Origin: Bacteroidota bacterium
Lineage (GTDB): Bacteria; Bacteroidota; Rhodothermia; Rhodothermales; JAHQVL01
DNA: 64,000 nucleotides
Assembly (NCBI GenBank): GCA_039111535.1
Contig: JBCCIM010000006.1
Span: 1 to 64,000, forward strand
Direction of reading: 5' to 3'
The notes under the pieces were generated by a model. The model made no database searches, had not been told where the DNA came from, and saw only the letters and a program-made list of their open reading frames with translations. Positions 20,527 to 57,135 of the stretch are shown here, one piece after another (within the stretch, counting starts at the first letter, position 1; the number at the start of each line of letters is the position of its first letter). The position numbers and the translations under genes are program-made.

Positions 20527-20552
20527 CCTTTTGCTCTGAGTGCAAGCATATC

Positions 20553-21080: not shown

Positions 21081-21101
21081 CCTGCATTGTAAGATCCTAG
21101 A

Positions 21102-23189: not shown

Positions 23190-23245
23190 TCCATTGGAAC
23201 CTGAAACGTTTAACAGGGAGCTGTTAAACGCATCCTGGATCATCT

Positions 23246-26007: not shown

Positions 26008-26138
26008 ACAAAGCTGCACGAAACGCGCAGCGCAAGCAACTTACACGCTGATCCTGGATCTTGCAATCATGCCCCAGTACTACAACGTTTGTAGGGGGCC
26101 GACATTTACTTTACTGGCGCACTTCCCTGGATGGTATT

Positions 26139-27530: not shown

Positions 27531-27582
27531 GGCGCAGTGTTTTTGTGGGCCAGGCCCATACTGATCCTTAACCCTAACCAGC

Positions 27583-28725
27583 ATGAAGAAACGAAGGCAA
27601 TCCAAACAGACACCCGAGCGACCGCCACCAGATAAATATGTCATCTGGGTTGTGCTGGTCTTGTCTGCCGTAGGTGTGATTGCCGTATACAGTGCAATTG
27701 CGTTTCTGGCAGAGACTAAAGCTGGGGGTAACACTGAGCAATTTCTACTGCGCCACCTGGCATATGTCGGACTGGCGCTCGGGGCAATGGCTATTTTTAG
27801 TCGCATTGACTACAGGATCCTCGCGCGTTTTGGCCGCGTTGCGCTGATCTCGATGACGGCCCTGCTGCTGCTTGTGCAGTTTGTGGGGATCAAGTCGGGA
27901 GGTGCTGTTCGCGCCCTCGATCTCGGATTTATCATGTTTCAGCCGGCAGAATTGGCTAAAGTGGCCCTGCTCCTCTACGTGGCATTCCTGCTTACAAAAA
28001 AGCAGGCCTACATTGAGAGTTTCAGTCGCGCCTTTACGCCGCTCTTCCTCTGGATCATCCTTACAGTTGTGCTGATAGGTATCGAAGACCTTTCAACGGC
28101 TTCACTTGTTTTTGGCGCAACGGTTATGATGTGTTTTGTAGCACGGGTCCACGTGCTGCAGCTATCGGGTTTAGGTGCCGTCTGTTTGCTGCTTGCTGCG
28201 CTGTTCCTCTTTAGCTCGCCGGCACGTATGGCGCGCGTAGACGAATACCTGGGGCGCGGACAAACAACAGAGGCTGCTGATCAAATACCGCAAGGAGATG
28301 GCTATCAGGCCCATCAGGCAAAAATTGCATTCGCAATGGGCGGGCTTACCGGCCGCGGCCCTGGGAAAAGTACCCAGCGCGACTTCCTGCCGGCACCTTA
28401 TAACGACTTCATCTTCGCAATTATTGCAGAGGAATATGGCTTGTGGGGGGCGCTTGGGCTACTGGCCCTCTTCAGCATTTTGCTCGTTCGAGGCTTTCTG
28501 AGCATCGGGCGAAGGGCGGCAGATCCACTCGGATTAATTTTGGCAGTGGGTATCACAACCCTTGTTTGTTTATACGGGTTTGTGCACGCTGCGGTAACAT
28601 GCGGCTTGTTACCCGTAACCGGGTTACCGATGCCGTTTGTCTCATACGGGGGCACGTCGCTCCTGGCTAACGGGATCTTGATGGGCATACTGCTGAATAT
28701 CTCACGGCACGCCCTTAGAGACTAA
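27583..28725 (+). CDS. ftsW: Lipid II polymerase FtsW (SEDS family)
   Basis: The 380-residue SEDS glycosyltransferase has about ten membrane segments. It shows QPAELAKVALLLYVAF, the periplasmic loop with GDGYQAHQAKIAFAMGG and GRGPGKSTQRDFLPA, and PVTGLPMPFVSYGGTSL near the C-terminus. It polymerises septal glycan together with the PASTA-domain PBP. The short N-terminal tail is basic (KKRRQSKQTPERP). The stop lies 4 nt before murG, which suggests coupled translation. Confidence 0.95.
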   Translation: MKKRRQSKQTPERPPPDKYVIWVVLVLSAVGVIAVYSAIAFLAETKAGGNTEQFLLRHLAYVGLALGAMAIFSRIDYRILARFGRVALISMTALLLLVQFVGIKSGGAVRALDLGFIMFQPAELAKVALLLYVAFLLTKKQAYIESFSRAFTPLFLWIILTVVLIGIEDLSTASLVFGATVMMCFVARVHVLQLSGLGAVCLLLAALFLFSSPARMARVDEYLGRGQTTEAADQIPQGDGYQAHQAKIAFAMGGLTGRGPGKSTQRDFLPAPYNDFIFAIIAEEYGLWGALGLLALFSILLVRGFLSIGRRAADPLGLILAVGITTLVCLYGFVHAAVTCGLLPVTGLPMPFVSYGGTSLLANGILMGILLNISRHALRD

Positions 28726-28729
28726 TCGA

Positions 28730-29848
28730 ATGCAAAGGTCAATGACATCCAAAGCACCCCGCATATTGTTTGCTGGAGGAGGAACGGGCGGGCATATTTA
28801 CCCCGCAATTGCCATTGCAGACGCCGTTCGCCGGCAAGTGCCTGAGGCTGCCATTGCGTTTGCAGGTACCGAGCACAAAATTGAGTGGCGGGCTGTGCCC
28901 AAAGCAGGGTATGCCATCCATCCGATAACCATACAGGGTTTTCATCGGCAGCAGATGTCCCGCAACCTGGCATTCCCTTTCAAACTTGCAAAGGGCTTGT
29001 GGCAAAGCTGGCAACTGATTGGTGATTTTGACCCCGATGTGGTGGTTGGTACGGGCGGATATGTTGCCGGCCCGGTATTGTATGCTGCCCATTTACGGAA
29101 GCGCCCAATTGTCGTGCAGGAGCAAAATGCTTTCCCTGGTGTGACAAACAAGCTCCTCGGCAAATATGCCCATACGGTACACCTGGCCTTCGAGGAGGCA
29201 AAAAGATTCTTTCCTGCAGACCGTTGTGTGCTGAGCGGAAATCCAACCCGCCAGATATTGCAACACGGCGAAAGGAAAGCGGCAATGGACTATTATGAGG
29301 TCCCGGACGATCATCGCGTGTTGTTGATGTTCGGTGGCTCACTCGGTAGTGCTGCACTGAACGCAGCAATGGAAGCAGGCATTCAACAGTTGCTGCAAGA
29401 TGAAAAGCTGGTCGTTATCTGGCAAACAGGTTCTGCTTATTTCGAAAAGCTGCAGGCCCGGGTAGCGACACATCCGCGGTTGCGGTTACTACGATACATT
29501 GACCGGATGGATCTGGCTTACATTGCGGCCGATCTTGTGCTGGCACGTGCCGGCGCGATCACATGCAGTGAGTTGATGGTTACAGGGGCGCCGGCTGTGC
29601 TGGTCCCTTCTCCCAACGTAGCGGAGGATCATCAAACCAAAAATGCGCGAAGTATGGAAGATGCTGGCGCCGCATTGCTGCTGCCGGAAGAGAATCTGAA
29701 AAGCAACTGGATAAAAACGGTTACTGATCTGTTAGAGGATGCGCCACGCAGAAACGCGATGGCAACAGCTGCGCAGGCGCTGAGCCGTCCAGACGCAGCA
29801 GATCACATCGCATCGTCGGTTCTGGCAATTTCGGGGTCGGGGAGATAA
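28730..29848 (+). CDS. murG: UDP-GlcNAc:lipid I GlcNAc transferase MurG
   Basis: The 372-residue GT28 glycosyltransferase has the glycine-rich acceptor loop GGGTGGHIYPAIAIAD near residues 17-32, MFGGSLGSAALNAAM near 202 and the donor-binding segment RAGAITCSELMVTGAPAVLV near 275-295. It converts lipid I to lipid II on the inner face of the membrane. The start may be the first ATG (28730) or the fifth codon (28742). Confidence 0.96.
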   Translation: MQRSMTSKAPRILFAGGGTGGHIYPAIAIADAVRRQVPEAAIAFAGTEHKIEWRAVPKAGYAIHPITIQGFHRQQMSRNLAFPFKLAKGLWQSWQLIGDFDPDVVVGTGGYVAGPVLYAAHLRKRPIVVQEQNAFPGVTNKLLGKYAHTVHLAFEEAKRFFPADRCVLSGNPTRQILQHGERKAAMDYYEVPDDHRVLLMFGGSLGSAALNAAMEAGIQQLLQDEKLVVIWQTGSAYFEKLQARVATHPRLRLLRYIDRMDLAYIAADLVLARAGAITCSELMVTGAPAVLVPSPNVAEDHQTKNARSMEDAGAALLLPEENLKSNWIKTVTDLLEDAPRRNAMATAAQALSRPDAADHIASSVLAISGSGR

Positions 29849-29897
29849 CTACCGGAGAGAGAACTACCGGAGAGAAACACAACTTTTGGAGAAGTTG
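29847..29897 (+). promoter_or_regulatory. murC leader: tandem 15-bp repeat and SD-presenting hairpin
   Basis: AACTACCGGAGAGAG (29847-29861) is repeated as AACTACCGGAGAGAA (29862-29876). CAACTT (29880-29885) and AAGTTG (29892-29897) then form a 6-bp stem whose loop TTGGAG shows the Shine-Dalgarno GGAG, 8 nt before the TTG at 29900. Each repeat also carries GGAGA. This layout could tune murC translation. Confidence 0.5.
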
Positions 29898-29899
29898 TT

Positions 29900-31321
29900 T
29901 TGAAACACGAGAAAACAATGGAATCTGTAGCACGCCGGCAACCTTCACTTGGGCGTATTCGCCGCGTGCACATGGTCGGTATCGGCGGCATCGGGATGAG
30001 CTCGATAGCGGAAGTCTTGCTGCACCGCGGATACAACGTGTCAGGTTCGGATCTCACAAAAAGCGACATTACCGCGCACCTTGAGTCGATGGGGGCAACC
30101 ATCTACGAAGGCCACGACGCTGCGCATATTGAAGGCGCTGACGTTGTGGTACACTCCAGTGCGATTAAAGCTGACCAGAACCCGGAAACCCTGGAAGCTG
30201 AGCGAAACCGCATTCCCTTGATCCCCCGTGCTGTTATGCTGGGTGAGTTGATGCGGATGAAGTACGGCATTGGTATTGCCGGAACGCATGGTAAAACAAC
30301 CACAACGACCATGGCTGGTCTGGTTGTAGCGGAAGGCGGTTTTGATCCAACCATTATTGTAGGCGGCAAAGTTGCCACCTTCGGGTCAAACGCAGTAGCT
30401 GGCGAAGGCGACATCATTGTGATCGAGGCTGATGAATACGATCGAACGTTTTTACGCCTCACACCCTCTTTGGCCGTGATCACGAATATTGAAGTGGATC
30501 ATCTCGACATCTACGAAGACCTTGACGACATCAAGGGGGCATTTGTCGAATATGCCAACAGCGTGCCCTTTTTTGGTGCCGCAATTGTTTGCCTTGATGA
30601 TCCCAATGTGCAGGCCATTATGGGCAAAATCGACAGGCGTGTTAGAACCTACGGGATGTCACGCCAGGCACAGGTTCGGGCAGAGCACATCCAGGCGGTA
30701 GGCTTGCAAACAAAGTTTGAAGTGTACCTCGATCAGACAAAGCTTGGTGATGTGTTGCTGAATGCCCCGGGCGTGTACAACGTGTACAATGCACTTGCCG
30801 CCATTGCGGTAGGCATTGAACTGGATATGTCGTTTGAACTGATCTGCGCCGGCTTGTCCAAATTCACCGGTGTCAATCGCCGCTTCCAGTTGATTGGGGA
30901 GCAGGATGGCATCACCGTGATTGATGATTATGCGCACCACCCTACCGAAGTGCGGGCAACACTTGGCGCGGCCAGTGCCGGTTGGCCCGAGCGGCGCATC
31001 GTAGCGGTTTTCCAGCCGCATCTGTATTCGCGAACGCGCGATTGTAAAGAAGATTTTGCACGGGCATTTTTTGACGCAGATATTGTTGTGTTAACCGAAA
31101 TATTTGGCGCGAGAGAAGCCCCGATACCAGGGATAGAAGGGCGCATGCTTGCTGATCTTGCCTTGCAGTACGGGCACCGAGACGTACACTTTGTGTCGGA
31201 TCTCGAGGAGCTTGCCGAATACCTCAAAGAAATAGTCCTCCCCGGCGATGTGGTTATCACGCTGGGCGCAGGCAGCATCTGGCGCTATAGCCGGAAATTT
31301 TTCAACGCGCTGGGTACCTAA
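29900..31321 (+). CDS. murC: UDP-MurNAc:L-alanine ligase MurC
   Basis: The 473-residue Mur ligase has the N-terminal HMVGIGGIGMSSIAEVLL (UDP binding), the ATP loop GTHGKTTTTTMAGL near residue 128, EADEYDRTFL, and DDYAHHPTEVRATL in the C-terminal domain. It adds the first L-alanine to UDP-MurNAc. The start is either TTG at 29900, which has GGAG 8 nt upstream, or ATG at 29918; both leave a normal length. murB and ddl, which follow murC in some phyla, are not present here. Confidence 0.96.
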   Translation: MKHEKTMESVARRQPSLGRIRRVHMVGIGGIGMSSIAEVLLHRGYNVSGSDLTKSDITAHLESMGATIYEGHDAAHIEGADVVVHSSAIKADQNPETLEAERNRIPLIPRAVMLGELMRMKYGIGIAGTHGKTTTTTMAGLVVAEGGFDPTIIVGGKVATFGSNAVAGEGDIIVIEADEYDRTFLRLTPSLAVITNIEVDHLDIYEDLDDIKGAFVEYANSVPFFGAAIVCLDDPNVQAIMGKIDRRVRTYGMSRQAQVRAEHIQAVGLQTKFEVYLDQTKLGDVLLNAPGVYNVYNALAAIAVGIELDMSFELICAGLSKFTGVNRRFQLIGEQDGITVIDDYAHHPTEVRATLGAASAGWPERRIVAVFQPHLYSRTRDCKEDFARAFFDADIVVLTEIFGAREAPIPGIEGRMLADLALQYGHRDVHFVSDLEELAEYLKEIVLPGDVVITLGAGSIWRYSRKFFNALGT

Positions 31322-31347
31322 CCCGGCCACACGCCTCATCCGCAGTT

Positions 31348-31483
31348 GCAGCCACTGGGCTGCACATGAACCAGCAGCCACTGGGCTGCACATGAACCTT
31401 GCAAGGTGGCCCGACAAGTAGTCCGGGTAAACACCTTTCCGTGGGAAATTCAACCTTAATGCGCTGGTGATCGAGAGATCACC
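31348..31483 (+). other. Structured murC-ftsQ junction: tandem 26-bp repeat and hairpins
   Basis: Two 26-bp units (31348-31373 and 31374-31399) differ only in the last base. Each contains the hairpin GCAGCC-ACTG-GGCTGC. A longer hairpin follows (AAGGTG 31403-31408 with CACCTT 31432-31437, inner CCCG/CGGG). Last comes GGTGATC-GAGA-GATCACC (31466-31483), a 7-bp stem with a GNRA-type loop that buries a possible GTG start at 31467. The junction looks like a processing, attenuation or translational control element for ftsQAZ. Confidence 0.6.
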
Positions 31484-31499
31484 TGGACGCCCTACGTAT

Positions 31500-32342
31500 A
31501 TGCGATCGAAATCAGGATCAAACCCAAAGACCCGGCGAGGCTCAAAACCAAAATCTCGAAAAAAGGCGCCAAAAAAATCGATACGCCAACAGCGTGCAGA
31601 AGACAAAAATTGGCCCTTCAGGAGCTTTTTGACCATTGTGCTGGTGCTTGTAGCCGGCGGCTTTGGCTGGTGGTGGAAAGGGCAAGTGGTCGTCAGAAAT
31701 GTACAAATTGAAGGGGTGCAGCATGCAGAAGAGACCGTCTTGCGAGAAATGATGCGGGTCGATTCGAGCCACCTGTTTTTTGACATTGATCCGGTGATGG
31801 TGTCGGATCGGTTGCGTCGGCACCCCTGGGTGAAAGAGGCGCGGGTACAGCGTTATCCAAATGCGACATTGCAGGTCGACGTCGAAGAACGCGTGCCGGC
31901 GTTGCTTGCGCTGGATGATAGTGGAGCGCCAGTGAGATATCTGGACGTAGATGGGTTTCAGATGCCTTTTGTAAAAGGGGCCATCTATGATGTCCCGCTG
32001 CTGCACGGATTCAATGAACCCATGCAGGGCATGCGGCCGATTATGCACCGCGCGTTACAAAAATTGTTGCAAGACATGCAGCGTGTACCTCCCGAGGTAG
32101 ATGCGCTTGTCTCTGCCTTTGAGATAGAGGAGAGTGGTGAGATCAGTTTGCATACGACACCCAAACCGGGGCGAGGATCGATCGAGGTATTGCTCGGCCG
32201 CGACCAGTTTGTGGAGAAGCTATCCAAACTGTATGCCTTCTGGCACGAGGCGGTACTTGAAAAAGAGGACGTAGATTTTGCGTCCATTGACCTCCGTTTT
32301 GACAGCCAGATCATTACAAAAGAAGTTCGATTAAGCCAATAA
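31500..32342 (+). CDS. ftsQ: Divisome protein FtsQ/DivIB
   Basis: The 280-residue bitopic protein has a very basic cytoplasmic tail (14 Lys/Arg in residues 1-32), one membrane segment (about 41-59), then a POTRA domain (VVRNVQIEGVQHAEETVLRE) and the FtsQ beta domain (HPWVKEARVQRYPNATLQVD). FtsQ recruits FtsL/FtsB and restrains septal synthesis until assembly is complete. The ATG at 31500 is preferred because the GTG at 31467 is inside a stable hairpin. It lies directly before ftsA. Confidence 0.88.
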   Translation: MRSKSGSNPKTRRGSKPKSRKKAPKKSIRQQRAEDKNWPFRSFLTIVLVLVAGGFGWWWKGQVVVRNVQIEGVQHAEETVLREMMRVDSSHLFFDIDPVMVSDRLRRHPWVKEARVQRYPNATLQVDVEERVPALLALDDSGAPVRYLDVDGFQMPFVKGAIYDVPLLHGFNEPMQGMRPIMHRALQKLLQDMQRVPPEVDALVSAFEIEESGEISLHTTPKPGRGSIEVLLGRDQFVEKLSKLYAFWHEAVLEKEDVDFASIDLRFDSQIITKEVRLSQ

Positions 32343-32364
32343 CATAAAAAGACAGGAAGCCATC

Positions 32365-33621
32365 ATGGATGGAGAAATCGTAGTAGGCCTGGACATCGGC
32401 ACCACAAAGATTTGTGCCGTTGTTGCTGCCGAAGATGATCTTGAAGGGATTAATATCCTGGGGGTCGGTATAGCGGAGTCCGAAGGCCTCAACAGGGGTG
32501 TTGTCGTGAATATCGACAAGACGGTTGCTGCCATTCAGGAGGCTATTGAAAAAGCTGAACGTGCCGCCGGCGTTACGGTGCACAGCGTGATTGTCGGTAT
32601 TGCCGGCGACCATGTACAGAGTTTTCAGAGCCGCGGGGTAATCACAACCCATCGTGACAGTGTTGTCACACAGCACGACGTACAGCGTCTGTTGGAAGAC
32701 ACTACCCACGTTGCGATGCCTGCCGACCGGGAGATCCTGCACGTACTGCCTCAGGAATACATTGTGGATGGCCAGGATGGCGTTGTTGATCCGATCGGGA
32801 TGAGCGGTGTGCGTCTGGAAGCCAATGTCCACATCGTAACCGGCCTGGTATCTGCAGCGCGCAACATTTATCGCTGCGTAGAGAAAGCCGGCTACAGTGT
32901 AGCAGATATTGTACTGGAGCCTCTGGCTTCTTCTTACTCGGTGTTGCATTCCGATGAGAAAGAAGTTGGCGTTGCACTGATCGATATCGGCGGTGGCACC
33001 ACGGATATCGCGGTGTTTGAAGACAACACAATCCGCCACACCGGTGTGATTGCCGTTGCCGGCAACAAAGTCACCGACGACATCCGCAAAGGACTCGGCC
33101 TGATGAAAGATCAGGCAGAACAGCTTAAACACCAATTTGGTGTTGCACTGGTTGATGTAAATCAGCCGGATGAACTGATCACCATTCCTGGAATTGGGGG
33201 TCGCACTGAAAAAACGATTAGCCGGAGTGCACTTTCCCAGATCATTCAGCCACGGCTGGAAGAAATTCTGGAGATTGCCGGCATCGAAATTAAACGCAGT
33301 GGTTATGCCCGTCATCTCGGTACCGGGGTGGTTATCACGGGTGGTGGTTCACTGATTCCTGGCACTGCCCAACTGGCGGCTGAAGTACTTGGCGTGGAAG
33401 CACGTGTAGGTACACCAACCGGACTCGGCGGCGGCATGGTGAAAGAGGTCAGCGATCCGAAATATGCAACCGCTGTTGGTCTCGTACTCTACGGTTTGCG
33501 TCCGGAAATTGTCAGAAGGGAATTTCTGGCAACCAAAGACAAGTGGAGCAACGGGAGCGTCGAAGCCTCTGGATCACGCAGCATCGTTGAACGCATGACG
33601 CGCTGGTTTCAGGAACTCTAA
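32365..33621 (+). CDS. ftsA: Cell division protein FtsA
   Basis: The 418-residue actin-like protein begins VVGLDIGTTKICAVVA (phosphate 1), has the SHS2/1C insertion near residues 85-165, IDIGGGTTDIAVFED (phosphate 2, about 210) and VVITGGGSLIPG (about 325). It ends in the amphipathic helix RMTRWFQEL that attaches it to the membrane. It tethers FtsZ and signals to the septal enzymes. A Shine-Dalgarno AGGA lies a few bases upstream. The first gene downstream is ftsZ, across a 150-bp gap with an inverted repeat. Confidence 0.96.
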   Translation: MDGEIVVGLDIGTTKICAVVAAEDDLEGINILGVGIAESEGLNRGVVVNIDKTVAAIQEAIEKAERAAGVTVHSVIVGIAGDHVQSFQSRGVITTHRDSVVTQHDVQRLLEDTTHVAMPADREILHVLPQEYIVDGQDGVVDPIGMSGVRLEANVHIVTGLVSAARNIYRCVEKAGYSVADIVLEPLASSYSVLHSDEKEVGVALIDIGGGTTDIAVFEDNTIRHTGVIAVAGNKVTDDIRKGLGLMKDQAEQLKHQFGVALVDVNQPDELITIPGIGGRTEKTISRSALSQIIQPRLEEILEIAGIEIKRSGYARHLGTGVVITGGGSLIPGTAQLAAEVLGVEARVGTPTGLGGGMVKEVSDPKYATAVGLVLYGLRPEIVRREFLATKDKWSNGSVEASGSRSIVERMTRWFQEL

Positions 33622-33629
33622 CAATAAAA

Positions 33630-33698
33630 CGATTGCCGAATCAGGATTGTTGATTGATTAAGCCAAAACCCATTCAACAATCCATCGATTGACAATCG
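33630..33698. repeat. Inverted-repeat element between ftsA and ftsZ
   Basis: The left arm CGATTGCCGAATCAGGATTG (from 33630) and the right arm (33672-33698), which reads CGATTGTCAATCGATGGATT in reverse complement, pair imperfectly over about 27 bp around a spacer of about 15 bp. The left arm shares GCCGAAT and AGGATTGTTGA with the element at 52714-52853, so both may belong to one family of small palindromic repeats. Transcribed from ftsA it would form a long hairpin ahead of ftsZ. Confidence 0.65.
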
Positions 33699-33771
33699 AT
33701 GCTCAAAAAATCGGGCCCGCTCAGCTCGATAATCACAACGCGAAAAATCGCACTGTAAAACTGGAGGGATC

Positions 33772-35040
33772 ATGGATACCTTAATTAGCTCACGATTTAC
33801 ATTTGAAGGCGACTCCGGGGATGGGCCGAAGCTCGCCGTGGTAGGTGTTGGCGGTGGCGGTGGAAACGCCATCAATAACATGGTTGACAAAGGCATTAAT
33901 GGCGTAGAATTTATCGCCATCAATACAGACAAGCAGGCGCTTGATGTCAACAAAGCAAATTACAAAGTGCAGGCCGGCCGCAATCTTACCAAAGGATTGG
34001 GGGCAGGCGCACGACCCGTCAAGGGCGCAGAGTCGCTCGAAGAAAGCCGCGAAGAGATTGAAGAACTCATTCGTGGGTACGAAATGATTTTTATCACCGC
34101 TGGTATGGGCGGTGGAACGGGGACCGGTGGTGCACCCGTTGTTTGCGCCATTGCGCGCAAACTGGGCATCCTGACGGTTGCCATTGTTACCAAACCCTTC
34201 GAATGTGAAGGCCGTCGGCGCATGGATTCTGCAATGGGAGGCATTGAACTGCTTCGCGAGCAGGTGGATACGCTGATCATTATTCCGAACGAACGGTTGC
34301 TGGATATCGCAGAGCCAAATACAAGCATGATCGAAGCATTTACAAAAGCTGACGAAGTGCTGTACAATGCTACCCGCGGCATTAGCGATCTGATTACCGT
34401 ACATGGTTTGATCAACCTCGACTTTGCAGATGTTGAGACCACCATGAAAAACGGTGGCACTGCCCTCATGGGTGCTGCTACGGCGTCTGGTGAAAACCGC
34501 GCTGAACGTGCAGCCGTTGAGGCAATTTCAAGCCCGCTGCTTGATGGCGTTGCCATCCAGGGGGCGCGGAATGCACTCGTGAACATTACTGCCGGATCAA
34601 ATCTTGGTATCCACGAAGCCACTACGGCAACCAGCATCATTCAGCGCGAGGCTGGTGATGATGTGGAAGTCATTTTTGGTACGGTGATCGACGAAGCGAT
34701 GGGCGACAGCCTCCGCGTGACGGTTATTGCTACGGGCTTTGACAAGCCAGGCCGCACAACGACAGACCAGCGCAACCGCGACACGATGCTCGACAAAGAG
34801 CCGCCGCAGTCCTTCATGAGCTACAAAGGCGAAGAAAACCTGCGTCAGTTGGATATTCCAGCCTTTGAACGCCGCAACAACACGATCAACTTTGCAGGAA
34901 ATCGGGATGCTGAAGCCGGGGGTGATGAAGAAGCTGGCAAGGTCAACCGACTGCAAGGTGATGACATGAAAGAGCGCCGGGAACGCATCAACAAAGGCAA
35001 CACTGATGTGCCTGCGTTCCTACGCAAAATGATCGACTAG
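33772..35040 (+). CDS. ftsZ: Cell division protein FtsZ
   Basis: The 422-residue tubulin-like GTPase has VVGVGGGGGNAINNM, the tubulin signature GMGGGTGTGGAPVV near residues 111-124, and NLDFADVETTMKNGGTALMG. A linker of about 70 residues leads to the C-terminal peptide DVPAFLRKMID that binds FtsA. It polymerises into the Z ring. The start has a strong GGAGG 5-6 nt upstream. Two hairpins downstream mark the end of the dcw cluster. Confidence 0.97.
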   Translation: MDTLISSRFTFEGDSGDGPKLAVVGVGGGGGNAINNMVDKGINGVEFIAINTDKQALDVNKANYKVQAGRNLTKGLGAGARPVKGAESLEESREEIEELIRGYEMIFITAGMGGGTGTGGAPVVCAIARKLGILTVAIVTKPFECEGRRRMDSAMGGIELLREQVDTLIIIPNERLLDIAEPNTSMIEAFTKADEVLYNATRGISDLITVHGLINLDFADVETTMKNGGTALMGAATASGENRAERAAVEAISSPLLDGVAIQGARNALVNITAGSNLGIHEATTATSIIQREAGDDVEVIFGTVIDEAMGDSLRVTVIATGFDKPGRTTTDQRNRDTMLDKEPPQSFMSYKGEENLRQLDIPAFERRNNTINFAGNRDAEAGGDEEAGKVNRLQGDDMKERRERINKGNTDVPAFLRKMID

Positions 35041-45816: not shown

Positions 45817-46035
45817 CTACTGAGAGGGTGTTGGCGTAGATGTGATAATTTCATTGAAGACTGTCTCGCCCGTTTCAAGCATTCGTGCGACGTATGGGTG
45901 GCACAGTTTGCAGTTTTGTCCAAACGTCACGTGCTGTTGAAGCTCAGGGATCGAAGTACTCCCTGAGGCTTCAGCAGCACGCTTTAATGCAGCAAAGGTT
46001 TGGTTGAAACAGTGGCATTTATCGATAACAAGCAT
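45817..46035 (-). CDS. Bfd-like [2Fe-2S]-binding protein
   Basis: The 72-residue protein has the bacterioferritin-associated ferredoxin pattern: CHC at residues 7-9 and CKLC at 42-45 (C-x-C-x32-C-x2-C), followed by a helix (HPYVARMLETGETVF). Such domains carry a 2Fe-2S cluster and act as small electron donors or regulators in iron metabolism. It lies 28 nt after the T9SS propeller gene and two genes after a B12 riboswitch, so it probably belongs to the cobalamin operon; a role in reducing imported cobalamin is inference. AGACAGTCT (45812-45820) and AGACTGTCT (near 45858) form an inverted repeat across its 3' end. Confidence 0.82.
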   Translation of the reverse strand: MLVIDKCHCFNQTFAALKRAAEASGSTSIPELQQHVTFGQNCKLCHPYVARMLETGETVFNEIITSTPTPSQ

Positions 46036-46063: not shown

Positions 46064-47449
46064 TTATTTAATAAGGGTCATCTGCCGCGTTGCAACAACA
46101 TCGCCGGCTTGCAGGGTGTAGAAATAGCGCCCGCTTGGCAAATCGGTTGCCTGCCAGTCAACTTTATGGCTCCCCGCCTGGTAGGCGCGGTCAGTTAGTG
46201 TTGCCACCTCTATGCCCAGAAGACTATAAACTTTAAGTGATACATCGGTTGCATGCGTCAACTCAAAAGTTATGGTTGTTGAAGGGTTGAATGGGTTCGG
46301 GTAATTCTGATTCAGCGTGAAGCGTTGTGGCGTCTCTCCAGGTGGGTCCTCTGTTGCGACTGAGGTACCAGTCTGCCAGAGTGCAATAGAAGTTGGGGCG
46401 ATGCCAACGTCAAATCTGCTCACTTCAGTACCGTCAGGCGTATGTACTGATACAAAGCCGGCCGTTGTAAAGCTGGTGATACGTGCAAGGTACAGGTGGC
46501 CACTGGCAGCATCAAAAGCGACGCCGCCAAGGCTTTCCGATCCAGCAATGGCAATTGAAGGGGCTTGCGTATTGGTTGTTGTATCGAACGCGAGAAGTTC
46601 GCTACCGCGCACGAGATACAGCACGTTGTTTACGCCATCATAGTAGGTGTCTTGGCCGGCTGAAGAGGCGCCTACCTGGGTGTCAATGTTTAGGCGCTCT
46701 TTTATTTCTTTGGTTGCAGGGTCAACAACGAGTACCTGCCCGTTGGTCTGCTCGAGGATTTCAGTAAAGTCGCTGTTGTATTCAGTTTTGCCATTGCATA
46801 CAACCCATAACTCGTCTTCTGCATCGACTTCAAGCGATCGTGGGCCGTCGCAGCCGAGCTGTAAAGTGTCAACGACCGCATCTGTTGCGATGTCGATGCG
46901 TGTGAGGGTACTATCGAATCCGAAACCATTATTTGCCACAAAAGCATAGCCGGCTACAGCGGCGATGTCTTCCGGGTTTGTGCCGGCGGAAATTGTGCCG
47001 GCTACAGTATTGCTGGTCAAGTCTATGACCGTAACACTGCTGCTGAACAGATTGGATACATAGGCTTTGTCGTCTGAAACAGCCGCCATATACCGGGGGC
47101 TCGGGACGTCCAGTATTTGGCCAGTTCTGGTGTTTGTGGGCAGGTCAAAAATATCAATTCGGTCGGAGGTGTTTGCCATAACAAACCCCGTGTTTTCATG
47201 CAATGTGATACTTTGTACGAGGGTGTTGAGGTCTGGCAGGCCGTCGGCTACAACAGTGGTTGTCGAAGGTGTGTACATTGAAACAGAACCGTTCGCATCG
47301 GAGAAATTCCCCTGGTTACCAATGTAGACCGATGTGGTTGATAGTTGCCCCAGCGCGCTAACCGGGAAGAGGAGGCAGAGCGCTGTAAGCAGGATGCAAG
47401 CAAGTTTGCTTGACCGATTAGATATAGCAGTAGCGGGTTTGTTGGGCAT
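46064..47449 (-). CDS. YncE-like beta-propeller with T9SS tail, candidate BtuG-type cobalamin binder
   Basis: The 461-residue protein has a signal peptide ending VSALGQ, then about seven repeats of YncE/YVTN type (KAYVSNLFSSSVTVIDLTSN, GYAFVANNGFGFDSTLTRID, LYLVRGSELLAFDT). It ends with the T9SS sorting domain NQNYPNPFNPSTTITFEL and a final Lys-rich end. It starts 34 nt after the TonB receptor under a cobalamin riboswitch. In Bacteroides, BtuG is a surface seven-bladed propeller that binds B12 very tightly and hands it to BtuB. The position and fold here suggest the same role, with T9SS anchoring instead of lipidation; this is inference. The ATG at 47449 is preferred because it opens the signal peptide. 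Confidence 0.85.
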   Translation of the reverse strand: MPNKPATAISNRSSKLACILLTALCLLFPVSALGQLSTTSVYIGNQGNFSDANGSVSMYTPSTTTVVADGLPDLNTLVQSITLHENTGFVMANTSDRIDIFDLPTNTRTGQILDVPSPRYMAAVSDDKAYVSNLFSSSVTVIDLTSNTVAGTISAGTNPEDIAAVAGYAFVANNGFGFDSTLTRIDIATDAVVDTLQLGCDGPRSLEVDAEDELWVVCNGKTEYNSDFTEILEQTNGQVLVVDPATKEIKERLNIDTQVGASSAGQDTYYDGVNNVLYLVRGSELLAFDTTTNTQAPSIAIAGSESLGGVAFDAASGHLYLARITSFTTAGFVSVHTPDGTEVSRFDVGIAPTSIALWQTGTSVATEDPPGETPQRFTLNQNYPNPFNPSTTITFELTHATDVSLKVYSLLGIEVATLTDRAYQAGSHKVDWQATDLPSGRYFYTLQAGDVVATRQMTLIK

Positions 47450-47483
47450 GTTGGTTTGTTTTATTAGGGTGGTCGTGTATGAT

Positions 47484-49430
47484 TTAGCGCGTGTCCTGAT
47501 TTTCCCCGGCAAACAGAATAGATAGTTGAAATCGGATTGCTCGAGGTGGGACCGGATAGCCTTTGATGACTTCAAAAGCCTGATCTGTCACGTTCTCCAC
47601 AAAAACGCCGGCTGTGACCCGGGTTTTGGGGAGGGCTCTGGAAACGCGCAGGTGAAAATCTGCTGTGGTATATCCTGGCAAAAATTGCTGGCCATCAGTT
47701 GTGATGTAGCGCCGGCTGATATGGCGAAGGCTGGCATCCAACTGTACTTGTAGTTTGTTGCGCTGGTGCGAAAGGCCCAGCCGGGTTTTGGCGACATGGC
47801 GCGGGGTATAGCGCAGCGGCTGGTTAAACGCCGGTGTATCCGCTTCGGAAATATCTCGGGCATCAGCAAGGGTATAGCTGTTATGGCTGCTGATTGACCA
47901 GCGCTTGTTCATTTTGAAATGGCTACCCAACGCGAATTCGGTCCCTAGAATTTTCGTTGTGCCAATGTTCTCCGGCTGCCATATGCTGCTGTTTGCGGCA
48001 GAGGGTAACCAGGTAATCTGGTTTTTTATACGGTTGTAGAATCCGGATGCTTCGATCAGGATTTCAACTGCATGGTGGTTAATTGTGTAAACGATTCCCC
48101 CTTCAATTTGCCGGCTGCGCTCAGGAGCAAGCTCTGGGTTGCCACCTGGTTGCCAGAACCTGTCGTTGAATGTTGGCGCGCGAAAACCGCTGCCGGCATT
48201 GGCTTTCAGAGTCAGTGGTATTGTTTGTAGTAGCTGAAAATTGACGCCTAACGACGGGCTCAGCGAGACCAGGTGCTCGCCATTGGAAGGGAAAAAGGTA
48301 TCGAGTCGAAGTCCGGGGAACAGGGTAAGGCGGGACACCGGGTGCACACTGCTTAAAAATCCGGCAAGCCTGTTCTCACGGGCGCTCCGCAACAGGTTGG
48401 GATGTCGCGCTGTGTATTGGCTTCCGGATATACCAGCACTCATACTGCCATAAGCCTGGTCCAGGGTGAGTTCTGCGTCGAGTGTGTAAGCACGCGTTCG
48501 CCCCGTCTGATCCAATGCCAACTGTGGGTTGCTGTAGCGCAAGGAACCACGCTGGGTTGCTCCCGTGAGGGCAAAAACACCTTTGGAAAGGGTAACGAGG
48601 TGGCGGGCCATTAATCTGCTTCCCGTATCCCATTGCCGCTCATCTTTTGGTGAAGTGGTTGCCGCGCCGGGCAGGCCACGTTCAGCAGTGTTGTACCATC
48701 CCGTGATCAGTGTGGCAGATTTTGGTTGGAGCCGGGCTACTTTGACAAACAGGGAAGAGGTTGTGCGATCAGCCCCTTCGCGCCGGCTGTTGGCAGGTGG
48801 GAAAAGGGATGGGTTCAGAAAAGGGAAGTCTCCCTGCTCGGTGCTATGGGCAAAAGACAGGAGTCCCTGCCATGCCCCGCGCGACAGGCCCGTTGATAGC
48901 GATCCATCGCGTTCACCAAACGGTCCGGTGCTGGCTGTTGTTTGTAAAAAGAACGGTTGGTCGGCATTGGGGGTTGCCAGGTTAATGACGCTTCCAATGC
49001 TCTGCGACCCGTAAAGCGCTGCGCCCTGTCCGTGTTGGATTTGTGCGCTATTGATGAGTTGCGCAGGAACCAGGGAAAGGTCAATTTGGCCGAGTTGTGG
49101 GTCGGATAACGGGACGCCGTCCAATAAAATGAGGGATTGGGAAGCCCCCGTGCCTCGAAAAGAAAGGGAGGCAAGTCCGTTGCCATAGCTGCGAATAAAC
49201 GGACTACCGGCACGGTCGAGCAGGTGGGCAAGGGTTTGGCTGTTCGAAGATAGTACGTCTTCTCGCTTGATGGTGGTCAGGTGGACGGGTGCATCGCGGG
49301 TGGCCTGGGGCAGGCGCAGGGCTGTTATCTTGATTGCCGGCAATGCATACACAGAATCAGCTTTTTGCGGTTGGGCAAAAGCTGGGGTACATGTCAGCAA
49401 ACAGAAAAGCAGGACAAAAATAAAGCGCAT
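47484..49430 (-). CDS. btuB: TonB-dependent receptor, BtuB-like (cobalamin)
   Basis: The 648-residue outer-membrane receptor starts at MRFIFVLLFCLLTC with a signal peptide ending AFAQ. A likely TonB box lies near ALPAIKITALR. The plug domain (about 45-150) has FIRSYGNGLASLSFRGTGAS, SLILLDGVPLSDPQ and ALYGSQSIGSVINL, and a 22-strand barrel follows. It imports a substrate using energy from TonB/ExbBD. The upstream cobalamin riboswitch makes B12 or a related corrinoid the likely substrate. It leads an operon with the propeller and the Bfd-like gene. Confidence 0.92.
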   Translation of the reverse strand: MRFIFVLLFCLLTCTPAFAQPQKADSVYALPAIKITALRLPQATRDAPVHLTTIKREDVLSSNSQTLAHLLDRAGSPFIRSYGNGLASLSFRGTGASQSLILLDGVPLSDPQLGQIDLSLVPAQLINSAQIQHGQGAALYGSQSIGSVINLATPNADQPFFLQTTASTGPFGERDGSLSTGLSRGAWQGLLSFAHSTEQGDFPFLNPSLFPPANSRREGADRTTSSLFVKVARLQPKSATLITGWYNTAERGLPGAATTSPKDERQWDTGSRLMARHLVTLSKGVFALTGATQRGSLRYSNPQLALDQTGRTRAYTLDAELTLDQAYGSMSAGISGSQYTARHPNLLRSARENRLAGFLSSVHPVSRLTLFPGLRLDTFFPSNGEHLVSLSPSLGVNFQLLQTIPLTLKANAGSGFRAPTFNDRFWQPGGNPELAPERSRQIEGGIVYTINHHAVEILIEASGFYNRIKNQITWLPSAANSSIWQPENIGTTKILGTEFALGSHFKMNKRWSISSHNSYTLADARDISEADTPAFNQPLRYTPRHVAKTRLGLSHQRNKLQVQLDASLRHISRRYITTDGQQFLPGYTTADFHLRVSRALPKTRVTAGVFVENVTDQAFEVIKGYPVPPRAIRFQLSILFAGENQDTR

Positions 49431-49570
49431 AAAAAAACCTGAACCCCAATAAAAATGGCTCAGGCAAGAACAGCAGATGCACACGATATCGCCACCTTGA
49501 TGATCAAGCTAACGATAGGAATGACACTGTTTTCTACCCGAACCTCAAAACCCGGAGGTTGACGGTATAC

Positions 49571-49760
49571 ACAGTGGCAGGTCTCCTGGCTTACTGCGAA
49601 AAACAGGCAACTCCATTCTGGCCTTCCCACTTGCCAAACAGGCATGCAGTGACCAGACGCTCATCGTTGTCTGTCTCGTTTAGCAGCGTACAGTTGCGGG
49701 TACAGCTCCAGATTGGTTGTGCAGGCATAATACCTGACTACCTTGGATTCCCTTTTAATC
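49571..49760 (-). promoter_or_regulatory. Cobalamin riboswitch
   Basis: On the minus strand the element begins with AAAAGGGAATCCAAGG (plus 49742-49757), continues with the core CCCGCAACTGTA (near 49690) and ends with the B12 box AAGCCAGGAGACCTGCC (plus 49577-49593). These three blocks, in this order and spacing, define the adenosylcobalamin riboswitch family. It lies about 140 nt before btuB. A stem AACCTC/GAGGTT between it and the gene (near 49540-49560) may be part of the expression platform. B12 binding should shut off the receptor operon. Confidence 0.95.
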
Positions 49761-49872
49761 GTCCCCGCATTGCTGCGGGTGTCGAACCAGTGTGCATATA
49801 TAAAAGAACATTAATTCAAGGTAGGTTATATTCCATGGATTAACAAATGTGCCTCCACTTACCCCACGAATC

Positions 49873-50775
49873 ATGCGTGTATCTTTATTCCTGACTGTTC
49901 TGGTGTTGATTACTGGATGTGGGCCGGCAGCAGAAAATAGCAACAACCCGATGACAAAGATTGAAGCAACGATCGATGCCGCAGTCGATTCTGTCCTTGC
50001 TGCACACCCCGAAGCCACGGTTGCTGTTGCCCTCGATGATGGGGTAACCGGGGCTACGTATCTGCTAAACGAGCACCGTTCGTTTCATGCGGCCAGCACG
50101 ATGAAAATACCGGTCATGATAGAGGTGTATCGGCAGGCCGGCCAGGGGCGATTTTCGCTGGATGATGAACTGGAGGTGGTGAACGCATTTCATTCTATAG
50201 TGGATAGCAGCCGCTACAGCATCGAGGATGATTCAGACGATGCGATCTATACAAAACTTGGGCAAAAAATGACCCTTCGCGCCCTCGTATATCAAATGAT
50301 TACCGTGTCTTCCAATCTCGCTACAAACCTGTTGATAGATTTTGTGTCAGCCGACACTGTGCAGGCTACAGCGGAAGCCCTGGGGGTGAAAAATATGAAA
50401 GTGCTGCGCGGAGTTGAAGACTTGAAAGCCTTTGATCTGGGTATGAGCAATACAACAACCGCTGCCGATCTCGCTGTTTTGCTCGCTGCCATTCGCGATG
50501 GAAAGGCTGTTTCTGTAACGGCAGACCAGGAGATGGTTGATGTATTACTGGCGCAGGAATTTAACGAAATGATTCCAGCAGGATTGCCGGCAACAGCGCG
50601 TGCAGCGCATAAGACAGGATGGATTACTGCAATTCACCATGATGCAGCCCTTGTGTACCCTGAAGGTACCGATCCTTATGTGCTGGTTATTCTTATTGAG
50701 GGCATAACAGATCATGCAGTATCCGCACAGGTGGGGGCTACAATTACTGCCGCCATCCATCAGGCATTGCGTTGA
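49873..50775 (+). CDS. Class A beta-lactamase-like serine hydrolase, lipoprotein
   Basis: The 300-residue protein has a lipoprotein signal (LITGC near residue 16). It shows the class A motifs STMK (nucleophile Ser), SSN in place of SDN, and HKTGW for KTG. The Glu of the omega loop is not obvious (DLKAFDLGMSN occupies that region), so it fits the broad beta-lactamase-related group (PF13354) better than proven penicillinases. It could hydrolyse beta-lactams or act on peptidoglycan peptides. It is divergent from the btuB operon. The ATG at 49873 is chosen over GTG 49849 because it starts the signal. Confidence 0.82.
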   Translation: MRVSLFLTVLVLITGCGPAAENSNNPMTKIEATIDAAVDSVLAAHPEATVAVALDDGVTGATYLLNEHRSFHAASTMKIPVMIEVYRQAGQGRFSLDDELEVVNAFHSIVDSSRYSIEDDSDDAIYTKLGQKMTLRALVYQMITVSSNLATNLLIDFVSADTVQATAEALGVKNMKVLRGVEDLKAFDLGMSNTTTAADLAVLLAAIRDGKAVSVTADQEMVDVLLAQEFNEMIPAGLPATARAAHKTGWITAIHHDAALVYPEGTDPYVLVILIEGITDHAVSAQVGATITAAIHQALR

Positions 50776-52891: not shown

Positions 52892-54622
52892 CTAGTTGTT
52901 TGCAAAAGTCATTACCTTGGCATCAACAAAATTTTCAGCGTCGATTTTGTACATGTAGACGCCACTGCTCATGGTCCGCCCGGATTCATCTCTGCCATTC
53001 CAGGAAGTGTTGTAACAGCCGACTTCCAGGTCCTGATCAACCAGCGTCGCGATTTCTGTTCCAGTCAAATCATATACCGATACCTGTACCCTTGCCGGCT
53101 GTGAGATGTGGAAGTTTATCGTCGTTTGCGGATTAAACGGATTGGGGTAGTTCTGGTAGAGCTCTGATTCCTGCGGCGCAATGTGCGCTTCTTTTGTATC
53201 TATCAGAATGCCATCAAGTATGGCGATGGTTGCGTGGTCATGCGCAAGCGCAGGTTCGTCTAAAAAGGCATTGGTAATACCGTGTCCGTAAAACATGTCC
53301 TGTCCCGGATCGGAACCCCGTTCGCGGGAATGATCGACAAGGAGGTGTTTCATCAAGCCGGGCGTGACGTCTTTCTCTTTGCTATGGATCAATGCAGCAA
53401 CGCCGGTCAGGAATGCAGCGCTTACGCTAGAGCCGGCAGCCCAGCCCCAACCATTGGCAACGGTGCTGAATACAAGGTCAAAAGTCCAGCATGGGCGATT
53501 CAGCCCTTCTTTGACACAGTAATCACGCCCCGGATAAGCAATGTCGCCGCCTGGGGCGGCAAAGTTGATCACATTGGCCCCGAAGTTACTGTAGCTTGTT
53601 GGCTTTTCAGGATTAGCTTCTGCATCAAAGGCCCATCCGACTGGTGCCGTTGCTGATACCGCTATAAAGGGTGTAGCACTTGCCGGCAGGTAAAGGCAGC
53701 AGGTGTCGAGGTTTTTCTTCTCGTCCCCAGCCGGCGCAATCAGGGTGACCCCTTTTTTAATGGCGTAAGTACCGACAACTTCTAACATCGCTTTCATCTC
53801 TGATGCCCGGATGCCCGTTGGACCGTCTTTGTGGTACAGCTTGCCGAGGCCGACGTTGGCGATGTGAACGTCCTGGTTTGCTGCATAAACTAACGCATCC
53901 AGTAACCAGGAGAAATCTCCACTACCTGTTTTATGTGAGGCAACCTTGAGCGCGATCAGTTCGGCTTCGGGGGCAACGCCTGTTGTCCCTTTGCCATTTT
54001 TTGCGGCTGCAATAACACCTGCGATATGGGTGCCGTGGTTAAATCCAAAATCTTGCTGGACATCCCAGTTTTCTGTAGGGACAAATGACTTGCTCAGCGA
54101 TTGATTGAGGTTGGGCGCAATGTCTACGTGGTCCGGATCAATTCCGTTGTCGATAATTGCAATACGGACGCCCTGACCTTTGCTTTTTTTCCATGCTTCC
54201 TCGGCATCGATGGCGTCGAGCCCCCACTGCAAATTGGATAGGTCCTGGGCGGCCTCTTCTGACGGTAACTCAGATTCGGGCAATCCAAGCAAAATGGTTT
54301 TGGCGGGGTCGATCCACTGGACTTCCGGATCATCGGATACAAGCGATACGCCAGCAAACCTGCGGACCCTGGCCTTAAGTCCCTGGTCGCCGTGAAAACA
54401 GACCAGGTGGGATGCACCCAGATTTATTTCGTTGCTTACTTCGCCGTGCTCAGCTGTGATATAAGATTTGAGTGCGCCAAGTTGCTGGTCCGAAACCTGG
54501 GCAATAAAATTATTCTGACCCCACGCCACGCGTGTGCCAAGGCATAAGAAGACAAAAACCAACAGCAAACGCGCCGGCAAATAAAAACTGGTTGTTGAAA
54601 AAGAAAATCGTAGCAACTGCAT
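52892..54622 (-). CDS. S8 subtilase paralogue with altered catalytic motifs and T9SS tail
   Basis: The 576-residue protein has a signal peptide ending AWGQ, an inhibitor-like N-terminal region, a subtilase domain (about 120-430) and a T9SS sorting tail (YQNYPNPFNPQTTINFHI). It is a close paralogue of the next subtilase. The Asp (IIDNGID) and His (HGTHIAG) blocks are kept. The oxyanion Asn of AGN is Asp (LIAPAGDEKKN), and the Ser block reads GSSVSAAFLTG instead of GTSMAAPHVTG, keeping Ser but losing the usual Pro-His. Activity may be low or changed. It starts at the ATG before the signal peptide; longer starts only add unconserved residues. Confidence 0.87.
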   Translation of the reverse strand: MQLLRFSFSTTSFYLPARLLLVFVFLCLGTRVAWGQNNFIAQVSDQQLGALKSYITAEHGEVSNEINLGASHLVCFHGDQGLKARVRRFAGVSLVSDDPEVQWIDPAKTILLGLPESELPSEEAAQDLSNLQWGLDAIDAEEAWKKSKGQGVRIAIIDNGIDPDHVDIAPNLNQSLSKSFVPTENWDVQQDFGFNHGTHIAGVIAAAKNGKGTTGVAPEAELIALKVASHKTGSGDFSWLLDALVYAANQDVHIANVGLGKLYHKDGPTGIRASEMKAMLEVVGTYAIKKGVTLIAPAGDEKKNLDTCCLYLPASATPFIAVSATAPVGWAFDAEANPEKPTSYSNFGANVINFAAPGGDIAYPGRDYCVKEGLNRPCWTFDLVFSTVANGWGWAAGSSVSAAFLTGVAALIHSKEKDVTPGLMKHLLVDHSRERGSDPGQDMFYGHGITNAFLDEPALAHDHATIAILDGILIDTKEAHIAPQESELYQNYPNPFNPQTTINFHISQPARVQVSVYDLTGTEIATLVDQDLEVGCYNTSWNGRDESGRTMSSGVYMYKIDAENFVDAKVMTFANN

Positions 54623-54937
54623 ACGGCTTACAGTAGGGGCTTGATTTGGGTCTGTGGACAAGCTGTTTTGAGGGTTGCTGAAGCAGCAAGAAGGGTTTAG
54701 ACTGAAGGGAGGCTGTCTAAGAAGTCCTTTTTTGAGATTTGCGCTTTGGTTTTGGACTACTGCCAAAAACCAGACCAAAACGGCTTCCTTTTTAGGGGAT
54801 TTTAACTACAGCCCAAAGAAACGACAGGCTTATTTAAGTCGCATTGGTCAAGGACGGAAGTGTGTAGCAGTATTTGGCTACGCCGCATGCGCCAGCAAGC
54901 CCGAGAATTGATGGAGGTTTGGCGCAGGCGCGGTGGT

Positions 54938-55166: not shown

Positions 55167-56879
55167 TTACTTGAGCAATGTCATTACGCGGGATGCTGTG
55201 AAGTTGCCTGCAACAATTTTGTACAGGTAAACCCCGCTAGCAACCGATTGCCCGCCGGCATCTTTGCCGTTCCATGAAGTTGTGTAAGAACCCGCAACCA
55301 TGGACTGGTTAACCAGCGATGCGACCTGGCGGCCCATCATGTCGTATACCGCGACCTGAACATCTGCCTGTTCTGCGAGATGGAAATTGATCGCTGTTGT
55401 CGGATTGAATGGGTTAGGATAGTTTTGCTCAATTGCAAAGCTGGTCGGGGTTTCTGTATCAAACCCGGCAGTTGCTACCAGATTGTCCGTTGCAGCAACG
55501 CCGTTGTCTCTGGTGCGCCAGAGTCCCAGTGCAGATTCTGCATCTACGCGACCGTGGCCAAAGAACGTGTCGTCACCAGGTGTGTCACCTAGTTTGTTAG
55601 CTGATGCCTTGAGCATGTTTTTGAGCTGTGCCGGGGTGGCGCCCTTTTTCCAACTCTTAAGCAGTGCTGCAACACCCGTCACGTGAGGGGCAGCCATGCT
55701 TGTGCCGGCAGCCCATCCCCAGCCTTCGTTGATTGTGCTGAAGACAAGGTCGAATACCCAGCAAGGCTGCGTTAATCCGCCAACCGTACAGGTCTCCGCT
55801 CCGGCATAAAGGGCGTCACCGCCTGGGCCAGCAAAATCGATGTGCCGGTCTCCATAGTTGGAATAGCTTGCCGGTACATCCATGTTTGTGCCCGGGTTCA
55901 GCCCCCAGCCTACTGGTGTAGTTGCTGAAACTGACAGAAAGTGCTTGGCACCACTTGGCAGTGCGATACAGCAGTTGTCTATGTTGAGGCTGTTGTTGCC
56001 AGCTGCAGCGATTAGCATTGTACCACGCTCGTTGGCGTACTCACCTACTGCATTGAGTATTTCTCTCAGTGCCCGCCCATCAGCACCAGCAGATCCTCCT
56101 TTAGGGAAAACCGCACCAAGGCTAAGGTTGGCAATGTCGACATCGTTGTCAGCGGCGTATACCACTGCATCGATTATCCAGCTGAAATTGCCACTTCCGG
56201 TGAATTCGGAAAGGACCTTCAGGGCAACCAGTTCAACTTCTGGTGCAACACCGATGGTACCAAGTCCGTTGTCGGCAGCAGCTATAGTGCCGGCTACGTG
56301 TGTGCCATGGTTAAAGCCAAATCCGGACTGGATATTCCAGTCCTCGTTCGGTACAAACGACTTGCTCAACGCACTGTTGAGGTTTGGCGCAAGGTCAGGA
56401 TGTTCTGCGTCGATGCCACTGTCGAGGACAGCCACGCGTACGCCGGCGCCCCGCCTTTTTCGCCATGATTCGGGCGCATTGATAGCGTCATGCCCCCACT
56501 GAAGGTCGAAGAAAAAATCGTCATCGCCACTGTTAGGTGGATTGCCGAAGGTCTCTGCAGCGCCAACGATGGCCTGCATGTCTGGCTGGATCCACGCTAC
56601 ATTGGGATCGTTGGCCACCTGGTTGGCCGCTTTGTGTTGCCGGGCAAAGCGTTTTACCTGCCGATCTCCGCTGAAACAGACAACGGAGGTGCCATCTAAC
56701 TGAATTACTTTGGTAATACTGCCGCCGGTTGCTGAAATATCTGATATGAAGGTATCCAGATTTTCAGTCTCAACGTGGGCGAGGAAGTTGTCTTGTGCTG
56801 AAGCTGTTGCTGCTATGAGCGGCAACATGAAAAAGAGCGTGAGCGCAACGCGCCACCACCTGGTAGAAGTTCGTCTCAT
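55167..56879 (-). CDS. S8 subtilisin-like protease with T9SS tail
   Basis: The 570-residue protein starts at MRRTSTRWWRVALTLFFMLP with a signal peptide ending ATASAQ. The subtilase domain has intact blocks: AVLDSGIDAEHPDL (Asp), HGTHVAGTIAA (His), LIAAAGNNSLN (oxyanion Asn) and GTSMAAPHVTGVAALL (Ser). EQNYPNPFNPTTAINFHL and the following strands form the T9SS sorting domain. It is probably a secreted or cell-surface protease. Paired Cys in the Ser-side loop (DNCCI) recur in the paralogue (DTCCL). The upstream start at 57059 would precede the signal by 60 residues and is rejected. Confidence 0.93.
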   Translation of the reverse strand: MRRTSTRWWRVALTLFFMLPLIAATASAQDNFLAHVETENLDTFISDISATGGSITKVIQLDGTSVVCFSGDRQVKRFARQHKAANQVANDPNVAWIQPDMQAIVGAAETFGNPPNSGDDDFFFDLQWGHDAINAPESWRKRRGAGVRVAVLDSGIDAEHPDLAPNLNSALSKSFVPNEDWNIQSGFGFNHGTHVAGTIAAADNGLGTIGVAPEVELVALKVLSEFTGSGNFSWIIDAVVYAADNDVDIANLSLGAVFPKGGSAGADGRALREILNAVGEYANERGTMLIAAAGNNSLNIDNCCIALPSGAKHFLSVSATTPVGWGLNPGTNMDVPASYSNYGDRHIDFAGPGGDALYAGAETCTVGGLTQPCWVFDLVFSTINEGWGWAAGTSMAAPHVTGVAALLKSWKKGATPAQLKNMLKASANKLGDTPGDDTFFGHGRVDAESALGLWRTRDNGVAATDNLVATAGFDTETPTSFAIEQNYPNPFNPTTAINFHLAEQADVQVAVYDMMGRQVASLVNQSMVAGSYTTSWNGKDAGGQSVASGVYLYKIVAGNFTASRVMTLLK

Positions 56880-57135
56880 CCTGAAATTCTTTTGAGTTAG
56901 GAGGGAATAGATCTGCAGAAAGGATGGCCGTGTCGCCTGCGCATGGTGGTGCAGGGATGGTAGGGTGCCGGCAGTATCGGTGAGCCGGCGTAGAAACCTT
57001 TGCTTGCAGGGATAGCTTCGGTGGTGAATCGAAACCGCGGTGCGTAGTGGGGCTCCCAATGAACAAAAAAAACTAAGGGATCTAATCAGCCATAGACGCC
57101 AATTAGAAAGAGAATTGCGTTACGGGGGCACATCT

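Follow-up and report, generated by a model that had tools for sequence, protein, structure and literature searches.

The locus described here lies on contig JBCCIM010000006.1 of a Bacteroidota bacterium of the order Rhodothermales (GCA_039111535.1; genome of 6.6 Mb, 97.6% complete), within a stretch of 64,000 nucleotides (nt) that was analysed as a whole, hereafter the window, and to which all coordinates refer. Its minus strand carries, in this order, a cobalamin riboswitch, a hairpin, a gene for a TonB-dependent receptor resembling the vitamin B12 transporter BtuB, a gap of 34 nt (from the btuB stop to the next ATG), a gene for a propeller protein ending in a sorting domain of the type IX secretion system (T9SS), a gap of 28 nt and a small open reading frame (ORF) for a BFD-like protein. 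The individual features are as follows.

49559..49806, minus strand: cobalamin riboswitch aptamer RF00174 (Infernal 73.5 bits for a gathering score of 31.5, E = 3.2e-16).
49431..49465, minus strand: hairpin with a run of 7 T ending at the btuB ATG (fold of -13.6 kcal/mol).
47484..49430, minus strand: btuB-like TonB-dependent receptor (P0002), 648 residues, with the Pfam domains Plug and TonB_dep_Rec.
Residues 472-488 of P0002, minus strand: EL8-type motif ITWLPSAANSSIWQPEN, from an alignment of 34 BtuBs.
46064..47449, minus strand: btuG-like propeller with a T9SS tail, 461 residues (phmmer, AlphaFold, Foldseek).
47348..47449, minus strand: Sec signal peptide ending in ...SALG, with predicted cleavage before Q (site by inspection) and without lipobox.
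46373..47338, minus strand: seven-bladed propeller domain, residues 38-359, with the pocket-loop motif N45QGNFSDAN53 (sequence and AlphaFold model).
46067..46303, minus strand: type A T9SS C-terminal domain (NYPNPFNP...), residues 383-461 (TIGR04183, 35.4 bits for a cut-off of 23).
45817..46035, minus strand: BFD-like [2Fe-2S] protein, 72 residues, 28 nt past the btuG stop (PF04324, 32.4 bits for a cut-off of 26).

A preliminary description of this DNA had recognized the riboswitch, the receptor and the propeller, all of which are retained here, but it had overlooked both the BFD-like ORF (46035-45817) and the hairpin ahead of btuB; moreover, it had ended the locus at 49760, which cuts the riboswitch (true end 49806) about 46 nt short. 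It had also taken the propeller for a YncE-type protein standing in place of BtuG, located 34 nt after btuB and bearing an NYPNPFNP tail. While the distance and the tail are as described, the affiliation is not, since the propeller is, judging from its sequence, itself a BtuG homologue. Thus, phmmer aligns it to the Bacteroides BtuG structures with E-values from 1.4e-22 (BtuG2) to 1e-11, against 0.6 for E. coli YncE, and it fails the YncE model NF052280 (22.9 bits for a cut-off of 400). A profile computed from 36 propeller sequences reaches BtuG at 5e-34; it also reaches the archaeal YVTN protein 1l0q at 3e-38, but through three repeat stretches and not through a single full-length match. Other domain matches are to DUF5074 (39.1 bits, cut-off 27.2) and to Por_Secre_tail PF18962 (32 bits, cut-off 27).

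The structure prediction that had been proposed as a check points the same way. The AlphaFold model of the propeller is of high confidence (mean predicted local distance difference test score, pLDDT, of 91.7), with the exception of the linker 365-373 that precedes the T9SS domain, and the top 16 matches returned by Foldseek from the PDB are all BtuG entries (target-normalised template modelling score up to 0.86, E-values down to 8e-22), at a sequence identity of about 22%. The protein 1l0q ranks behind these entries and the best YncE far behind (E = 5.8e-11). Regarding the pocket positions discussed for BtuG2 (PMC10404256), the loop Asn54-Thr64 is kept as N45-x-G-N-F...N53 and Tyr239 as Y224, while Trp194 and Tyr335 are both replaced by Phe.

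The receptor, described beforehand as BtuB-like, deserves this name, as Bacteroides BtuB1 comes first among its PDB matches (E = 2e-31), E. coli BtuB reaching only 4e-14, while the best matches of a BtuB family profile are Bacteroides BtuB2 and BtuB3. In the BtuBG system, loop EL8 of BtuB inserts into the BtuG pocket, and an aromatic residue of this loop (Tyr538 in BtuB3, Trp or Phe in BtuB1/2) has been proposed to aid the release of the vitamin (PMC10404256). The corresponding pattern, I-x-W-x-P...(mostly aromatic)-x-P-x-N, is found in all 34 aligned BtuBs of our survey (I472, W474 and N488 being invariant) and is absent from E. coli BtuB; W484 of P0002 falls at the Tyr538 position of BtuB3. 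By its closest homology and by its EL8 motif with an aromatic tip, P0002 is a predicted BtuB of the BtuG-partnered type.

The riboswitch announced upstream of the receptor is confirmed by its RF00174 score, and a genome-wide search finds no second match in the host, the only one being that of the btuB-btuG locus. Comparable hairpins occur just 5' of the btuB start in six related loci (L048, L049, L050, L051, L056 and L068) and, given this shared location, the hairpin at 49431-49465 is a plausible, indeed likely, candidate for the expression platform (a terminator and/or a mask of the ribosome site). A run of T follows it in L048, L051, L056 and L068 and is absent in L049 and L050, as if the same riboswitch controlled termination or translation depending on the species.

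To place this arrangement in a broader context, 395 genomes across the phylum were searched with the propeller of the window itself, which favours its nearer relatives. Queries were limited to the propeller domain; when the whole protein served as query, matches to the widespread T9SS tail drowned out the others, the only useful loci there being L075, from a Balneolales bin (G173), and L076, from Gracilimonas mengyeensis (G311), two members of the same class as the host. At E <= 1e-15, the propeller is present in 84 of the 395 genomes, always in single copy at that threshold. Over the 102 loci examined, btuB lies immediately upstream of the propeller in 96 and a riboswitch is present in 93; of the nine loci devoid of riboswitch, seven are broken by a contig end. 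The synteny suggested for survey in the preliminary description is thus conserved, and the pattern that it had regarded as refuting, i.e., homologues regularly located beside non-B12 receptors in the absence of a riboswitch, was looked for in these 102 loci and did not occur. Some loci are organized differently: about 190-310 nt separate the riboswitch from the propeller downstream of it in L215, L223 and L232, with no btuB between them or nearby upstream, and in L212, btuB comes after btuG.

In several relatives, genes related to B12 (by reading of the sequences) are found downstream of btuG, i.e., those for CobT, CobU and a class II ribonucleotide reductase. Behind tailed btuG genes, these are CobT in L075 and L199 and the class II ribonucleotide reductase in the Gracilimonas locus L076. 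Because the gene order is kept in about 100 related genomes, a chance arrangement can be excluded, and the best reading of the locus is that of a putative riboswitch-controlled operon for corrinoid scavenging, btuB-btuG(-bfd), the expression of which would respond to B12. The metabolism of the host fits a B12 scavenger: the genome encodes the B12-dependent methionine synthase MetH, and CbiC, the one biosynthesis marker that was searched, was not found. Of the FecCD loci found elsewhere in the genome, L247 resembles a haem uptake locus by reading, and L248 comes closest to BtuC and BtuF.

The way in which the propeller would be held at the cell surface is where it departs from its Bacteroides counterparts. 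Nearly all BtuG homologues are surface lipoproteins, featuring a lipobox cysteine and then an export signal (PMC6143338). We scored the anchor on 100 intact propellers, two of the 102 being contig fragments, and assigned a lipobox by inspection to four propellers that had not been classed automatically. The two anchors turned out to be mutually exclusive, with 74 propellers having a lipobox and no tail, 26 having a tail and no lipobox, none having both and none having neither. Lipobox propellers terminate at the last blade, while tailed ones combine a Sec signal with a C-terminal T9SS domain, which exceeds the TIGR04183 cut-off in all ten tailed propellers that were scanned (26-43 bits). Between the cleavage site and the first strand, lipoproteins have 12-33 residues, whereas among the 24 tailed proteins with a readable cleavage site, 23 have 5-7; the mature N-terminus of the window propeller sits 6 residues ahead of the strand. 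In BtuG2, the N-terminal linker runs along BtuB and has been proposed as a hinge (PMC10404256), and the segment lost in tailed forms corresponds to this linker. As for the pocket, both the lipoprotein and the tailed class mostly conserve the positions equivalent to N54, G56, N57, F58, N62 and Y239 of BtuG2.

The anchor swap appears to have occurred more than once in the phylum. In a propeller tree inferred with the tail left out, parsimony requires five anchor changes, and a single origin of all tailed forms is rejected by the approximately unbiased (AU) test (p = 7e-7). Merging the two tailed groups of Rhodothermales is not rejected (AU p = 0.175), nor is merging the two groups of Balneolales (p = 0.405), so that five independent origins are to be taken as a parsimony count, with fewer being possible. 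Both anchor types coexist within single families (f9, f12 and f18) and within Rhodothermales, in which most BtuGs, including that of Salinibacter ruber, are lipoproteins. Consequently, T9SS anchoring, which the preliminary description had put forward as a possible design of the lineage, is suggested by the tail of the window propeller but does not extend to the lineage as a whole. In one genome (G053), a tailed btuG is followed by a BFD-like gene and then, with the same orientation, by a paralogous propeller of the lipoprotein type (L044:4924-5976 and 6270-7631, both on the minus strand), and this side-by-side occurrence of the two anchor types is possibly an intermediate.

Concerning the secretion machinery, the host genome encodes SprA (1876 bits) and PorU (986 bits), both over the cut-off. 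Among 20 genomes tested, SprA is present in all and PorU exceeds its cut-off in 18; the two others, S. ruber (G014) and G285, have SprA without a PorU above the model cut-off, and both carry a lipoprotein BtuG. At face value, tailed lineages might simply be those endowed with a T9SS, but we rejected this idea: lipoprotein lineages also possess SprA, and most of them PorU, hence the system is available there and its presence is not decisive. Tail-bearing proteins were also observed on S. ruber plasmids, despite the lack of a PorU above the cut-off. In G014, which belongs to the same order as the host, the second contig matches plasmid pSR35 of S. ruber DSM 13855 identically over its first 12 kb.

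The capture step suggested beforehand, combined with T9SS export, is supported by sequence and fold, by synteny, by the EL8 motif and by the mutual exclusion of lipobox and tail. We consider it likely that the propeller is a BtuG-type lid, exported by the T9SS and probably anchored, that hands corrinoids to BtuB. In such a mechanism, the lid would capture the corrinoid outside the cell and pass it on to BtuB within a complex of the two proteins, the EL8-type loop of BtuB dislodging the vitamin from the lid. Export would proceed through Sec, then through the type IX system by means of the C-terminal domain, which would replace the N-terminal lipid. PorU, the sortase, would probably cut off the tail and attach the protein covalently to the surface through its C-terminus. 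The lid would thus be tethered at the chain end opposite to that of Bacteroides BtuG, its N-terminal hinge linker having been lost.

Several points weigh against this scenario. P0002 remains under the curated cut-offs for BtuB (TIGR01779, 128 vs. 599.7 bits; NF007926, 93 vs. 836 bits), and with TIGR01779 so far below its cut-off, the identity of the receptor rests on homology and context. Likewise, the best candidate for BtuC and BtuF in the host (L248) is below curated cut-offs. Trp272 and Tyr316 of BtuG2 are not kept in the propeller (A264 and G308 here), although these positions vary among lipoprotein relatives too. The search for T9SS machinery in the host covered SprA and PorU only and, finally, the tail might serve to release the protein instead of anchoring it.

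Release into the medium is the main rival explanation: the propeller would be exported by the T9SS and set free, as a diffusible, hemophore-like corrinoid binder docking later on BtuB. The tail is a secretion signal and by itself no proof of anchoring, and tailed proteins are devoid of an N-terminal tether, but type A T9SS tails are usually cell-attached, a PorU sortase is encoded in the host, and one lid gene stands beside one btuB, conserved exactly as for lipoprotein lids. On balance, we deem release unlikely for the window protein, and just as little probability attaches to its generalization, according to which tailed BtuGs would be diffusible or loosely held corrinoid catchers, akin to a hemophore for B12, instead of fixed lids. 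One may also imagine that the propeller has lost corrinoid binding and remains in the operon as a structural or adhesive surface protein, as the four aromatics named for the upper-ligand pocket of BtuG2 include two that the propeller does not conserve. This appears still less probable, considering that the Gly, Asn and aromatic residues of the pocket loop show the same degree of conservation in tailed and lipoprotein forms, that the place in the operon and the riboswitch have been preserved across the phylum, and that BtuB has kept its EL8-type motif. As to an ordinary YncE-type or DUF5074 propeller, lying by chance beside a TonB-dependent receptor and unrelated in function, it would agree with DUF5074 being an unnamed family and with the weak NCBIfam match to YncE. 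However, the E-values of BtuG are better than those of YncE by about 10 orders of magnitude for the fold and about 21 for the sequence, and the btuB synteny found in 96 of the 102 loci already contradicts chance placement, which makes this explanation highly implausible.

The BFD-like gene, with its four invariant cysteines, is probably the third gene of the operon. It directly follows btuG in most Rhodothermales, whichever the anchor type, is found at a distance of about 1.6 kb in S. ruber and its relatives (L039, L043 and L046) and is absent in family f15. A role as a dedicated B12 gene is weakened by its being single-copy and by its location elsewhere, both in Balneolaceae and in genomes devoid of btuG. 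A search of the PDB gave no relative of the protein at E 0.1, and that it could serve corrinoid reduction is a guess on our part. In the remainder of the window, the divergent gene adjoining the riboswitch (49849-50775, plus strand) resembles a serine hydrolase lipoprotein of the class A beta-lactamase type, two tandem genes on the minus strand (52892-54778 and 55167-57059) encode subtilisin-like (S8) proteases, each with an NYPNPFNP T9SS tail, and a division and cell wall cluster from mraZ to ftsZ (19034-35040, plus strand) looks complete.

The preliminary description had supposed that such a design was not known, and the literature that we searched (subscription papers lying outside its coverage) contains neither a link between BtuG and type IX secretion nor a T9SS substrate acting as the lid of a B12 receptor. 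One article (PMC12578637) names both BtuG and type IX secretion, but concerns the BAM complex, while the DUF4465 paper makes no mention of T9SS or sorting domains. Capped TonB-dependent transporters have so far been described as lipoprotein-assisted (PMC10404256). If our interpretation is correct, an unrelated secretion system can hold a lid by the opposite end of its chain, and has come to do so repeatedly, which would imply that the lipid and the N-terminal hinge are inessential to the pedal-bin mechanism and would make the hinge model testable through natural anchor swaps. In that case, a set of DUF5074/T9SS proteins would also gain a likely function, and the T9SS would stand as a possible route of vitamin capture in environmental relatives of Bacteroides.

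Among known systems, our reference was the BtuBG set of B. thetaiotaomicron (BtuG1-3 with BtuB1-3; Wexler 2018, PMC6143338; Abellon-Ruiz 2023, PMC10404256), in which riboswitch, BtuB and seven-bladed propeller are likewise encoded side by side. It provides the closest solved sequences and folds, and shares the EL8-type motif in BtuB and the pocket loop N-x-G-N-F...N. Unlike BtuG, the window propeller lacks the lipobox, lipid and associated export signal, as well as the N-terminal hinge linker, and bears an additional C-terminal T9SS domain. In this respect, it resembles type A T9SS substrates (TIGR04183), with a Sec signal peptide, an NYPNPFNP tail and both SprA and PorU encoded in the genome. 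Other corrinoid binders of the same kind of uptake network, i.e., BtuH, BtuJ1/J2 (DUF4465) and BtuK1, are not the closest in fold or sequence, even though BtuK1 (9s6c) is a structural match of the propeller (E = 5e-11). In the SusCD and RagAB systems (compared in PMC10404256), an extracellular cap likewise sits on a TonB-dependent barrel, but fold and substrates differ and the cap is a lipoprotein. Altogether, the system of the window departs from BtuG in not being a lipoprotein and, with pocket residues kept in part, agrees with it in the remaining features accessible to testing.

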